From Rugosimonospora africana (GTDB taxonomy: Bacteria; Actinomycetota; Actinomycetes; Mycobacteriales; Micromonosporaceae), in assembly GCF_016862975.1 (NCBI RefSeq), contig NZ_BONZ01000061.1, forward strand, positions 62,001 to 126,000: 64,000 nucleotides of DNA. Direction: 5' to 3'. The position numbers were made by a program, and so were the translations under genes. The notes beneath the pieces were generated by a model, which searched no databases, was not told where the DNA came from, and worked only from the letters and a program-made list of their open reading frames with translations. Position 1 is the stretch's first letter; each line of letters starts with the position of its first letter. Shown piece after piece: positions 355-45,957 of the stretch.

Positions 355-375
355 CCCGTACGGCCCGCCTCTCCC

Positions 376-426
376 GACCAGTCTGGCTCGGCGCATCTGA
401 CGCCGCGCGACGCCCCAGGCCGGTCG
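376..426. repeat. Dispersed palindromic element, copy 1
   Basis: Begins GACCAGTCTGGCTCGG and ends near CCGGTCGTC. It matches five other copies in the window, and its two ends are largely reverse complements. This copy touches the 3' end of the DUF6745 gene (stop codon at 427-429) and could also act as a hairpin terminator between the two genes. It has more mismatches in the right arm than the copies at 11057 and 44487. Confidence 0.7.
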
Positions 427-4088: not shown

Positions 4089-4171
4089 CGGTGGACCTCC
4101 CTGGTCCGGTGCACGCGCAGTGGTCGGCGGCAGGTCTACTATGCCCGACGCCCGCCGCCGCCGTGGGCCGC

Positions 4172-4260
4172 GACCGGTCAGGGTCGCGCGGCACCAGACG
4201 CGCCGAGCCAGACGCGCCGGGCCAGACGCGCCGGGCCAGACGCGCCGGGCCAGACTTGCC
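4172..4260. repeat. Dispersed palindromic element, copy 2, with 14-bp unit amplified
   Basis: Opposite orientation to copy 1. The left part GACCGGTCAGGGTCGCGCGG corresponds to the element end. The other end, with the core GACGCGCCGGGCCA, is repeated four times in tandem (14-bp period, about 4197-4252) before GACTTGCC. It fills the spacer immediately before the ATG of the SDR gene at 4263, and so displaces any normal ribosome-binding site. Confidence 0.8.
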
Positions 4261-11031: not shown

Positions 11032-11056
11032 CTCGGCCTTTCCCCCGGTGGTGTGC

Positions 11057-11105
11057 GACTGGTCTGGATCGTCGCGCGGCGCCAGACGCGCCGAGCCAGA
11101 CTGGT
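11057..11105. repeat. Dispersed palindromic element, copy 3 (near-perfect hairpin)
   Basis: The cleanest copy, 49 bases. The left arm GTCTGGATCGTCGCG can pair with the right arm CGCGCCGAGCCAGAC in a 15-bp stem with two mismatches and a 10-base loop. It lies in the spacer upstream of the DUF1707 gene start. Confidence 0.85.
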
Positions 11106-11252
11106 GCTGCGCTGCCGCGCCTGGATGGTACCCAGTGCGCCACGGCGGCGTGGCCGCGCGCACATGTTACTCAGGATGGCGCCAGCCGTGGCCTCGTTCA
11201 AGCGGCCCGACTTCGCCGCCGGGCAGACGTGGCCCCGGGCCGTACCGGCGAG

Positions 11253-28100: not shown

Positions 28101-28597
28101 AGCTCAACCGCCCGGCCTGGCTCGGCACGTCTGCCGCCGCGCCGCGACCCAGACCAGTCGCCCGTCGACGCACGCAACTGCTCGCCGCCGGCGCCATCGG
28201 CGTGGGCGCGGTGATCGCCTTCGCCCTGCCCGCGGGCGCCGCCGTGGTCAACCAGTCGCCGCCCGCGCCGGTACTGAAGCTCGGCAAGACCGCCACCCTG
28301 GAAGCCAACGGCGCGGTGGTCTTCGCACCGGTCACGATCACCTGCCCGGCCGGAACGAGCCAGTACCTGACGGTCGCGGTCACCGAGAACGTCGCGGGCG
28401 GGTTCATCGCCAGCGGTGCGGCCAGCCTCGACGTCGACTGCACCGGCCAGTCGCAGACAGTCCGCCTGGCGGTGACGCCGACCCAGCGCGCGTTCACGAA
28501 GGGTGTCGCGTTCGGCCAGGCGAGCATCGACGTCTGCGGCCCGTACTCCTGCAAGCCCTTGAGGGACCAGCACGAGATCCAGATCGTCAAGTCGTAA
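28097..28597 (+). CDS. Secreted protein of unknown function, coupled to the ligase-like gene
   Basis: A 166-residue protein with an N-terminal signal sequence: a long Arg-rich head (residues 1-26), a hydrophobic core LLAAGAIGVGAVIAFALPAGA and a probable cleavage site after AGA. The mature part (about 115 residues) has two Cys pairs (TITCPAG, VDCTG, DVCGPYSCK) and reads like a small beta-sandwich. No family is recognised. The ATG shares an ATGA overlap with the upstream stop. The Arg-rich head is encoded by copy 4 of the dispersed palindrome. Confidence 0.7.
   Translation: MKLNRPAWLGTSAAAPRPRPVARRRTQLLAAGAIGVGAVIAFALPAGAAVVNQSPPAPVLKLGKTATLEANGAVVFAPVTITCPAGTSQYLTVAVTENVAGGFIASGAASLDVDCTGQSQTVRLAVTPTQRAFTKGVAFGQASIDVCGPYSCKPLRDQHEIQIVKS
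28114..28160. repeat. Dispersed palindromic element, copy 4, inside a signal-peptide region
   Basis: CCTGGCTCGGCACGTCTG at the left and CGACCCAGACCAGTCG at the right, same orientation as copy 1. It is read in frame as residues 7-21 of the secreted protein. Confidence 0.75.
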
Positions 28598-33228: not shown

Positions 33229-33343
33229 CCGGCCGGCGGGCCGGTCGCTGATCGGGCGGCGCGCGATTAATCCGGCCCGCACGGGTAACGCGGACGGGGA
33301 AGAAGTCCCGTTTGTCGGGGACCGCCTGACCGGCGTGGTACAC

Positions 33344-33393
33344 GACTGATCTGGGTCGTGGCGCGGCGTCAGACGCGCCGAGCCAGACTAGTC
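33344..33393. repeat. Dispersed palindromic element, copy 5
   Basis: Starts GACTGATCTGGGTCGTGG and ends GCCGAGCCAGACTAGTC; same orientation as copy 3. It ends just before the ribosome-binding site of the lipoprotein gene. Confidence 0.8.
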
Positions 33394-33414
33394 GGAACCG
33401 GGAAAGGAGCGGAC

Positions 33415-43266: not shown

Positions 43267-43280
43267 GTCACCTGTCGCCT

Positions 43281-43331
43281 GAGCCACCGGTTCACCTGAG
43301 CCACCGGTTCACCTGAGCCAGCGGTTCACCT
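43281..43331. repeat. 17-bp tandem repeat, three copies
   Basis: Units start at 43281, 43298 and 43315: GAGCCACCGGTTCACCT twice exactly and once with one change. It lies 14 bases after the phosphoesterase stop, before efeO. Confidence 0.92.
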
Positions 43332-43430
43332 GAATCGCCGGCAGCGGCCGGTCTGGCGGGGTCGGGCCCCACGGGTTTCCGGGGGCCCGACTCGCCGCCC
43401 CACATCCATCGATCCGCGAAGGAGGCCGCG

Positions 43431-44666
43431 GTGCGTTCCCCCGCCGGCTGGTCGAGCGTGCGGCGGCACCCCCGCTGGTGGATCGCCGGTGCCGCGGTCG
43501 TGGCCCTGGCCGCGGCCGGCACGGTGTACGGCGTCCTGGCGGTGGACCGGGTCGTGACGCTGTCCGAGAAGGACTGCGGGAACGGCTGGTCCGGCCCGGT
43601 CGACGGGCGCCAGAGCCTGGTCCTGCGCGACGCGGCACCCAACCCGGTCCAGGTGTACCTGATCGATCCCCGGCGCAACCTGGTCTACGCCGAGGCACGG
43701 GACCTGACGCCCGGTACGCGGCGCACGATGAGCACCACGCTCGGTGCCGGCCGGTACGCGCTGCGCTGCGTGTTCACCGACGGTACGGTGCTCACGTCGC
43801 AGGCGCACACCCTCACCGGTACCGTGGCCGGCGCCGTCACCGGCGTGCCGCCCATGCCGGACCTGGACCTCACCGGACCGGTCGGCGCGTACCGTTCCTC
43901 CGTGGAGCGCGGCCTCCCACCGCTGCTGGCCGACGCGACCCGGCTCGCCGCCGATGTCGCCGCCGGCAACCTGGCCGCCGCCCGGACCGACTGGCTGCCC
44001 GCGCACCTGGACTACGAGCGCCTGGGTGCGGCGTACAACTCGTTCCAGGACTTCGACGGAGCCATCAACGGTACGGCCGACGGGCTGCCGGACGGCGTCG
44101 ACGACCAGTCCTGGACCGGACTGCACCGGATCGAGTACGGCCTGTGGCACGGCCAGCCCGCGGCGGTGCTCCGGCCGCTGACCGGCCGTCTCGTCTCCGA
44201 CATCAAGGGCCTGATCGAGGACCTGCCCAGCGAGGACATCGACCCGGGCGACCTCCCGCTGCGCACCCACGAGATCCTGGAGAACACCCTGCAGTTCCAG
44301 GTCACCGGCCACGACGACTACGGCAGCGGAACGACGCTTGCCACTGCGTACGCCAACACGCAGGGCACCCAGGCGGTGCTCGGCACGCTGACCGGGCTGA
44401 TCTCGGCCCGGGACCCGGCACTGCTCGCGGCGATCGACCGGGGCATCGCGACCGTGCAGGCCGACCTGCTGGCCTGCCGGGTTTCGGACCAGTCTGGCTC
44501 GGCCCGTCTGGCGCCACGCCACGATCCAGACCAGTCGTCCGGCATCTGGATCGCCGCCGGCGCCCTGCCGCAGGCGCGCCGCCAGAAAGTCGACGCTGAC
44601 CTCGGCGCGCTGCTCGAACAGCTCGACGCGGTACCCAATCTGCTGCACGAACGGACCTCAGCATGA
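43431..44666 (+). CDS. efeO: EfeO-type iron uptake lipoprotein/M75 protein with inserted repeat
   Basis: A 411-residue exported protein. A membrane/signal segment spans residues 17-38. A cupredoxin-like domain (about 45-135) and the M75 imelysin domain (about 145-410) follow; [18 protein letters not shown] near residue 192 lies where M75 proteins carry their conserved metal-site motif. EfeO binds ferrous/ferric iron outside the membrane for delivery. Residues 353-369 ([17 protein letters not shown]) are encoded by palindrome copy 6 and break the normal run of the last helices, yet the frame stays open. GTG start after AAGGAGG. EfeB follows after 13 bases. Confidence 0.85.
44487..44537. repeat. 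Dispersed palindromic element, copy 6, inside efeO
   Basis: GACCAGTCTGGCTCGGCC at the left and GATCCAGACCAGTCG at the right, 51 bases, so in frame. Near-identical to copy 3 read in reverse. It sits about 40 codons from the efeO end. Confidence 0.9.
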
Positions 44667-44679
44667 CACGGACCCCGGC

Positions 44680-45957
44680 ATGACCTCGACGACCGCGACC
44701 CCGCCCACCGGCTCCGGCTCCGGCGCGTCCCGACCGGGCCTGGGCCGGCGCTCATTCCTGCGCGGTACCGCGCTCGGCGCCGCCGCCACCGCCGCACTCG
44801 GCGCCGCCGGGTACGGCACCGCCCGGGCGGTGGCCGCCGGCACCGACGGCCGGAGCATCGCCTTCCACGGCGCGCACCAGGCGGGCATCGTGACACCGCA
44901 GCAGGCCGCCGCGACGTTCGTCTCCTTCAACGCCACCGCGCCCGACCGCACCGCGCTGCGCGAGCTGTTCCAGACGCTGACCGAGCGGGCGCGCTTCCTC
45001 TGCGCCGGCGGCACGCCACCCGACGTCCCGGTCTCCTCGGTGCCGCCGGACAGCGCGACGCTCGGCCCGGTCGTGCCCACCGACGGGCTGAGCGTCACCG
45101 TCGGCGTGGGCGCGTCGCTGTTCGACGACCGGTACGGGCTGGCCGCCCGCAGGCCGGCCAAGCTGACACCGATGCCGATCTTCCCGAACGACAACGTGGC
45201 CGGCTCGACCGAACTGCACGGCGACATCATGCTGCAGCTCTGCGCGGACTCGCGGGACACCGTGATGCACGCGCTGCGCGACATCACCCGGCACACCCGC
45301 TCCGGAATGCAGCCGAACTGGAAGGCCGACGGGTTCATCTCCGCGCCCCGGCCGTCCGGTACCCAGCGCAACCAGCTCGGCTTCAAGGACGGCATCGCCA
45401 ACCCGGACGTCGCGGACGCGACCGAGACCGACCGGCTCATCTGGGCCAAGGGCGGCGTGAACGGCGAGCCCGCCTGGGCCGAAGGCGGCAGCTACCAGGT
45501 GGTGCGCATCATCCGGATGCTGGTCGAGTTCTGGGACCGGGTCTCGCTGCACGAGCAGGAGACGATGATCGGCCGGCGGCGGGACAGCGGCGCCCCGCTC
45601 AACGGCGCCGTGGAGAGCGACGTCCCGGACTACACGAACGATCCCAACGGCATCGGGATCCCGCTGACCGCGCACATCCGGATGGCCAACCCGCGCACTC
45701 TGGAGACGGACAACCAGCGGATCCTGCGCCGCGGATACAACTACGACCGGGGCGTGGACCTCGACGGCAACCTGGACGTGGGGCTCATCTTCTGCTGCTA
45801 CCAGCAGGACGTCGCGCGGCAGTTCGAGGCGGTACAGAACCGGCTGGCCGACGAGCCGCTGGTGGACTACATCCAGCCGACCGGCGGCGGGTACTTCTTC
45901 GCACTGCCCGGGGTGCGCGACGCGAGCGACCACCTCGGCTCCGGCTTGTTCACGTAG
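44680..45957 (+). CDS. efeB: Tat-exported DyP-type haem peroxidase EfeB
   Basis: A 425-residue peroxidase with a twin-arginine signal (GRRSFLRGT, Arg23-Arg24). The DyP hallmark GFKDG is at 234-238 with the distal Asp237; the proximal haem ligand is His332 in [11 protein letters not shown]. In EfeUOB systems EfeB oxidises ferrous iron or strips iron from haem outside the membrane and passes it to EfeO and the EfeU permease. Here efeB lies 13 bases after efeO, so it is coupled with it, but no EfeU-like permease gene follows or precedes. Confidence 0.92.

Follow-up and report, generated by a model that had tools for sequence, protein, structure and literature searches.

A 54-nt palindromic repeat inserted in frame in EfeO, with related copies in Micromonospora enzyme genes, resembles the protein-coding palindromes of Rickettsia

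Among described repeats, those closest in behavior to the one reported here are the RPEs, elements of 100–150 bp from Rickettsia and Wolbachia (PMC3767692), which, in the parts of the literature drawn on here, are dispersed palindromes that lie between genes and also in frame within them, including in a gene for a tRNA synthetase subunit, and whose mode of movement is given there as unknown (PMC3767692, PMC10969869, PMC3733652). REPs, in the relevant sections of two reports, are short hairpins (21–65 nt) of high copy number that occur in clusters, some of them inside genes (PMC3733652, PMC6006769), and a 2025 survey, in the portion that bears on this question, predicts REPs in three Actinomycetota genomes and does not mention Micromonospora (PMC12306157). 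The CGTC REPs, which include RPE-4/RPE-6 and dRS3, are hairpins, some of them intragenic, for which the sections drawn on give a dedicated transposase as not known and which are reported there from five phyla, Actinobacteria not included (PMC3733652). MITEs, as introduced in one of these papers, are non-autonomous elements with inverted-repeat arms and possible protein fusions (PMC10969869). Since the Rickettsia reports it has been an open question by what route palindromes get into coding genes and which agents mobilize them.

The window analyzed here is a 64,000-nt stretch of DNA within an 11.1-Mb genome of 219 contigs, in which a preliminary description had pointed to a palindromic element of 51 bases that adds 17 residues to EfeO. 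The features of the window that concern us are the following; for copies of the repeat, the strand named is the one with the more stable fold.

375..426, minus strand: intergenic copy of the repeat (repeat profile)
4171..4213, plus strand: degenerate intergenic copy beside 14-nt tandem repeats (repeat profile)
11056..11107, plus strand: intergenic copy; predicted fold −28.3 kcal/mol (minus strand −21.9)
28109..28160, minus strand: intergenic copy, 12 nt past a predicted stop codon (repeat profile)
33343..33394, plus strand: intergenic copy (repeat profile)
43431..44666, plus strand: efeO, the host gene (EfeO, imelysin/M75; Pfam PF09375, E 1.1e-19, residues 154–351; PDB match EfeO 7wgu)
44484..44485, no strand assigned: left TC flank, which may be a 2-bp duplication or a favored 5' flank (TC on both sides)
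44486..44537, minus strand (the best-folding one): the 52-nt hairpin element in efeO, with 4 differences from the family consensus
44538..44539, no strand assigned: right TC flank of the efeO element (TC on both sides)
44680..45957, plus strand: gene for an efeB-like DyP peroxidase that adjoins efeO, carries no element and is the empty paralogue of a filled gene at C30:17539 (Pfam DyP; DNA alignment)

The window's EfeO has four PDB matches, 7wgu among them. Its element matches the family consensus at 48 of 52 nt, is 82, 88, and 94% similar to three other copies in the window, and, read on the plus strand, encodes 17 residues; the minus strand folds at −27.3 kcal/mol, compared with −21.5 for the plus strand. 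The gene has gained a net 54 nt (the 52-nt element plus 2 nt), or 18 residues, and efeO stays open when the 54 nt are removed (...LLACRVSGIW...), which gives Arg-Val-Ser-Gly-Ile as the inferred empty site. In a MAFFT alignment with 30 EfeO homologues, two of them paralogues from the same genome, the 17 element columns hold 0–2 residues in all 30, and the distance between two anchors is longer in the window's EfeO by 18 residues relative to 21 of the 30 and by 17 relative to three (the excess is 15 for four homologues, 16 for one, and 22 for one). The insertion itself, the preserved reading frame, and the uninterrupted course of most EfeO proteins at this point, all of which the preliminary description had claimed, are thus borne out, and none of the 30 element-free homologues has the residues of the insert; the TC flanks and anchor lengths revise the size of the insertion from 51 nt and 17 residues to 54 nt and 18 (the excess over 21 of 30). 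The insert had also been placed in the C-terminal part of the M75 domain, which does not hold, since it starts directly past the Pfam M75 match. In a low-confidence single-sequence AlphaFold2 model (mean pLDDT 37.9, pTM 0.23) it lies between the last two helices and has no predicted secondary structure, and it may form a loop there. Upstream of the gene, at window positions 43275–43341, a 17-nt unit (family D11) is repeated three times in tandem.

The element belongs to a large family. In the 2.43 Mb (22%) of the genome read for the repeat, which include stretches chosen for holding matches, iterated nhmmer searches located 109 places that together hold 134 copies (E < 1e-3), and the same search of reversed sequence returned no repeat matches; the window itself has six copies. 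Two fully tiled contigs, C13 and C15, span 797 kb and contribute 37 copies at that threshold, equivalent to ∼520 per genome, and extrapolation suggests roughly 500–600. A covariance model matched all 150 candidates scored, which came from a larger first-look list. Fourteen of 84 single copies differ from the 52-nt consensus at two positions or fewer, and one is identical to it. Two to four units stand in tandem at 20 places, with 54 nt as the commonest pitch (11 of 25 steps) followed by 53 nt (6 steps), and neighboring copies within 200 nt of each other form 26 same-strand pairs and no inverted ones. At window positions 4160–4259, the degenerate copy merges into its tandem array of 14-nt (GCCGGGCCAGACGC-like) units, which gives the impression that a segment of the element was amplified. 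A second dispersed repeat, with GGATCCTCGCTCCGC- and GGTCCGGCATGAG-like parts, has the 52-nt element nested in it at C1:118948-118999 and C26:9430-9481 and occurs without it at C15:109.6 kb, C15:278.2 kb, and C13:492.9 kb; one in-genome empty site in this second family looks, in our reading of the alignment, like 53 rather than 54 nt.

Outside this genome, 77 of the 79 named element-bearing loci among the matches listed come from Micromonospora and the other two from Planosporangium, and the family and genus designated f1 and g4 in our searches are probably Micromonosporaceae and Micromonospora. At least 120 of 354 genomes and at least 9 of 44 genera of the family match the repeat (E 1e-3, two candidates scored per genome); in the order, under stricter filters (E 1e-5), at least 34 of 298 genomes do, all of them in the window's own genus or g4 (2 of 77 genera). 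The 32-mer core of the own-genome type has no exact match in the contigs of named genomes, where this genome's own records may be absent. Fourteen of 37 Micromonosporaceae loci form six groups, each with the element at one position shared by two or three genomes, which gives no sign of recent movement at those loci. Literature searches, covering titles and the openings of abstracts, found no account of this repeat or of in-frame palindromes in Micromonosporaceae.

The copies are imperfect palindromes that form a 20-bp hairpin, and the hairpin is conserved with strong covariation. Among 98 of 101 reference copies (L038:4878-4929, L159:10780-10831, and L173:1495-1546 were left out because their ends are out of register), 96.5% of the cells assigned to pairs are paired, compared with 91.0% after shuffling, and changes on both sides of the stem number 112, compared with 28.2 in shuffles that do not preserve relatedness (none of 500 reached the observed value); versions slid out of register pair in 23–36% only. 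Unaided, RNAalifold recovered 15 of the 20 pairs, six of them with changes on both sides. Among the 98 copies, GC and CG occur at pair 7-46 in 61 and 25, CG and UA at pair 10-43 in 44 each, and GC and AU at pair 11-42 in 80 and 15. Stem sequence differs between own-genome and Micromonospora copies and the pairing is kept; the apical part (3 bp, a 2-nt bulge, 5 bp, and an 8-nt loop) is near-constant except for the bulge and one loop base. The two strands are not equivalent: among the 102 sequences above the score cut-offs, pairs 5-48 and 6-47 are Watson-Crick or G.U in 98 and 99 on the bottom strand but in only 33 and 32 on the top strand. On the bottom strand these pairs are mostly G.U, and at 5-48 either side may be the G. 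This asymmetry suggests that just one of the strands is recognized, either as RNA or as single-stranded DNA. A search of window positions 44300–44750 against Rfam gave no match up to E 1.

Copies are depleted in genes and occur there in a restricted set of frames. Of the 109 own-genome places, 74 are intergenic, eight are at a gene edge, and 27 are inside genes predicted by a purpose-written, codon-usage gene finder to which only in-frame insertions are visible; the in-gene share is about threefold below the expected 0.78 (binomial p 2e-32). Seventeen in-gene cases are solid by score, one of them with a weak copy of the repeat (score 25), and EfeO, whose right-hand score (0.09) lies under the cut, is counted with them because of its homologues. 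An exact-core scan gave at least 86 Micromonospora places, and the matches listed do not amount to a random sample: 34 are solid in-gene cases and 10 weak ones, 17 are intergenic, 20 are at gene edges, and five are at locus ends; merged by hand, the 34 solid places represent 25 independent ones. The resulting 43 independent in-gene places divide among the six frames as 12, 11, 0, 12, 7, and 1 (chi-square p 0.0008); that is, in-gene copies lie in both orientations and four frames, and the two Arg-rich frames are nearly unused. The absence of the TSLARRVW frame is partly trivial, since a stop interrupts it in 18 of the 74 single copies (and interrupts the RLVWVV frame in 2 of 74), and the sixth frame may be wholly unused, since its lone case, L286, has an extra base and a peptide like that of the TAPGRGAASDAPS frame. 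Openness in all six frames is by itself unremarkable: shuffled versions of the consensus have it in ∼23% of cases and 52-mers drawn at random from the genome in ∼30%. Between genes, 24 places are divergent, 21 and 15 co-directional, and 12 convergent, with respective shares of the available space of 0.39, 0.25, 0.23, and 0.12; places roughly follow that space, and divergent gaps are not markedly avoided. Relative to genes within 40 nt, copies at 3' ends are in the same orientation in 17 cases and opposite in 15, and copies at 5' ends in 12 and 13, respectively; 28 of 60 3'-side distances are at most 30 nt from the stop codon.

Filled and empty forms of a site can be compared directly in hisC, a familiar auxotrophy marker, which is present in 61 of 61 Micromonospora genomes and is one of the element hosts identified by profile. 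Thirty hisC loci were taken, 29 of which could be aligned over the region: five carry the 54-nt unit (four as a single copy and G183 as three in tandem), G204 retains a remnant of 30 nt, and in 23 the site is empty and undisturbed. The filled site of G315 reads GGCGAC-[CGAC...GTCG]-ACCAGG and the usual empty site GGCGACCAGG, so that the insertion corresponds to the 52-nt element plus a repeated AC. Because the carriers are closely related, these insertions may represent one event followed by growth and decay. In the host genome, the DyP paralogue at C30:17539 carries 54 nt (aligned as 9 + 45) that are missing from two in-genome paralogues, and a 3-hydroxyacyl-CoA dehydrogenase has 18 residues in its second half that are missing from its first. 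Profile identification places inserts at residue 547 of a Micromonospora ValS (L229), between the catalytic and anticodon domains, and inside the domain in both HemE and protoporphyrinogen oxidase of L225. The element in L229 is shared in frame by L259, L274, and L275 (Micromonospora yasonensis, sp. MW-13, inaquosa, and trifolii for the four loci in order), with near-identical flanking protein sequence; the last three are assigned to ValS by likeness only, and the tRNA synthetase insertion seems, from sequence comparison, to have been kept across Micromonospora species. The adjoining hemE and protoporphyrinogen oxidase genes each hold their own in-frame copy in L225 (by profile) and in L243 (by likeness).

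An AlaS-like protein of 643 aa at C35:42816-44744 also contains an in-frame element, and a separate AlaS with an 895-aa open frame is found on C51. The AlaS-like case was dropped as a clean empty-site comparison: owing to length variation in this region, 15 homologues have 11–15 residues in the 18 columns of the element. The place is still among the 18 own-genome in-frame places in the frame counts.

At the element boundaries, identical 2-nt flanks are found in 12 of 54 high-scoring single copies compared with 3.98 expected (0 of 2,000 shuffles), a strong result for one score-chosen subset in a test in which five lengths, seven shifts, and four subsets were tried; overall the count is 15 of 101 against 8.8 expected (p 0.0145), a weak signal. 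At the position two bases 5' of the element T is favored (35 of 53). These signals do not establish a fixed duplication or a fixed target. Some right flanks, for example at C36:20415, C38:18158, and C13:289335 and in the hisC of g4, begin with a NCGACCAG-like sequence that resembles the element's own end and may reflect either a decayed tandem copy or a target preference.

An HUH/Y1 transposase was considered as the mover and is conceivable but unsupported. The host genome has one Y1 HUH gene (Y1_Tnp), with no element copy in its 3.4-kb locus, and Y1 genes are found in three of seven element-rich and none of five element-poor Micromonospora genomes, a difference that decides nothing (Fisher p 0.20). 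Eight Y1 loci (∼3 kb each) from the three Y1-bearing element-rich genomes, with one further match not among them, gave no element matches; one of these genomes, G268, has seven Y1 transposase matches, and six of its loci (L315 and L318–L322) hold no element. GTAG occurs within 0–2 nt 5' of the hairpin foot in one of 74 copies on each strand, GTGG in none (top) and four (bottom), and CGTC in six (top) and one (bottom). For an insertion sequence with matching ends, inspection by eye of 53 partial matches in the 2.43 Mb revealed no same-orientation half-end pair 0.5–3.5 kb apart; one pair lies 4.9 kb apart (C21:197254/202162). The Y1-locus and matching-ends searches thus yielded no mobilizing enzyme.

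These observations are probably best explained by a non-autonomous palindromic repeat of Micromonosporaceae (∼54 nt net) that spreads, or once spread, as a one-stranded hairpin and whose copies in genes are tolerated. The hairpin, as single-stranded DNA or RNA, would be recognized by a putative trans-acting enzyme; the repeat would land mostly between genes, and in-gene copies would survive where the 54-nt length keeps the frame and the peptide is polar, as in EfeO, with tandem copies growing head-to-tail in ∼54-nt units. Movement is suggested by the many unrelated sites and by the differences in presence and absence. The preliminary description had read the efeO copy as direct evidence that the element moves into genes and is tolerated or exapted as protein: in-frame insertion holds for EfeO, DyP, and hisC, and "tolerated" fits, with an inserted peptide that may be neutral, but movement enters only through the indirect signs just given, and the "exapted" reading is unsupported, the peptide being different according to the frame used. 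A bolder reading, which we regard as possible but doubtful, is that of a distinct class of actinobacterial mobile hairpin, copied via a single-stranded DNA or RNA intermediate by a putative host or mobile enzyme and repeatedly lengthening housekeeping enzymes (ValS, HisC, HemE, and protoporphyrinogen oxidase), as well as proteins such as EfeO, in the course of Micromonosporaceae evolution; its 54-nt size and largely stop-free frames would make such a hairpin compatible with coding sequence.

Nearly an even chance must be given to the family being dead, that is, an old burst now simply inherited, in which slippage has lengthened the tandem arrays and copies have undergone some conversion, a history that is compatible with the past tense of the explanation we prefer. 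Positions common to Micromonospora genomes at 14 of 37 loci, the missing 2-nt flank match in most copies, and the lack of a Y1 transposase in four of seven element-rich genomes all fit inheritance, whereas the presence/absence pattern in hisC (possibly itself one old event) and the 14 of 84 single copies at most two differences from the consensus, one of them identical, speak for later activity. That the EfeO loop is just a peculiarity of its lineage, resembling the repeat by chance or through GC-rich codon bias, is hardly conceivable: GC content is high and open 52-mers are common, but the DNA identity (48 of 52 nt) already refutes it, and the 30 of 30 homologues without the insert, the absence of decoy matches, and the empty hisC site for the same element add to this.

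A regulatory role, in which the hairpin is a terminator, mRNA stabilizer, or protein-binding site retained locus by locus for that purpose, would account for the strong covariation on one strand and for the many 3'-side distances within 30 nt of a stop codon, yet we think it unlikely, given that copies within genes occupy four frames and both orientations, the lack of an Rfam match at 44300–44750, and the lack of orientation bias relative to genes. We take the last point to favor involvement in the element's own spread rather than in host transcripts. Template-switch correction during replication makes the arms of a palindrome match without any selection, and the symmetry could in principle arise in that way rather than by selection on the hairpin; this process predicts Watson-Crick pairs, however, and one strand preserves G.U pairing at both 5-48 and 6-47, with the G on either side at 5-48, which leaves it improbable. 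Spread as a one-stranded hairpin remains our preferred reading. With hundreds of copies, many sequenced Micromonospora species, filled and empty sites, and a strand-specific hairpin, both mobility and the effect on host proteins are directly testable. A caution for annotation also follows: where a protein from Micromonosporaceae contains such an 18-residue peptide, the peptide may stem from inserted DNA rather than represent a conserved motif.

Set against the known systems, the repeat resembles RPEs in behavior, being likewise intergenic and also in frame in unrelated genes with shorter homologues, and differs from them in its 54-nt size, its Micromonosporaceae hosts, and its use of four frames and both orientations. 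Like the REPs and REPINs served by RAYT (TnpA-REP), it is a short hairpin present in many clustered copies, but a GTAG/GTGG guide is not the rule, no element stands beside the Y1 genes examined, and REPINs or BIMEs are inverted pairs whereas neighbors here are all on the same strand. It is also unlike the CGTC REPs, in that the tag is rare and the host actinobacterial, and it differs from MITEs in having no parent element with matching ends in the part examined and a weak duplication signal. The repeat is thus RPE-like by behavior and REP-sized, and departs from REPs in its tag, in the absence of inverted pairs, and in the absence of a linked transposase; its related copies, as read from sequence, lie in frame in several well-known Micromonospora enzyme genes, much as the protein-coding palindromes of Rickettsia do in theirs.
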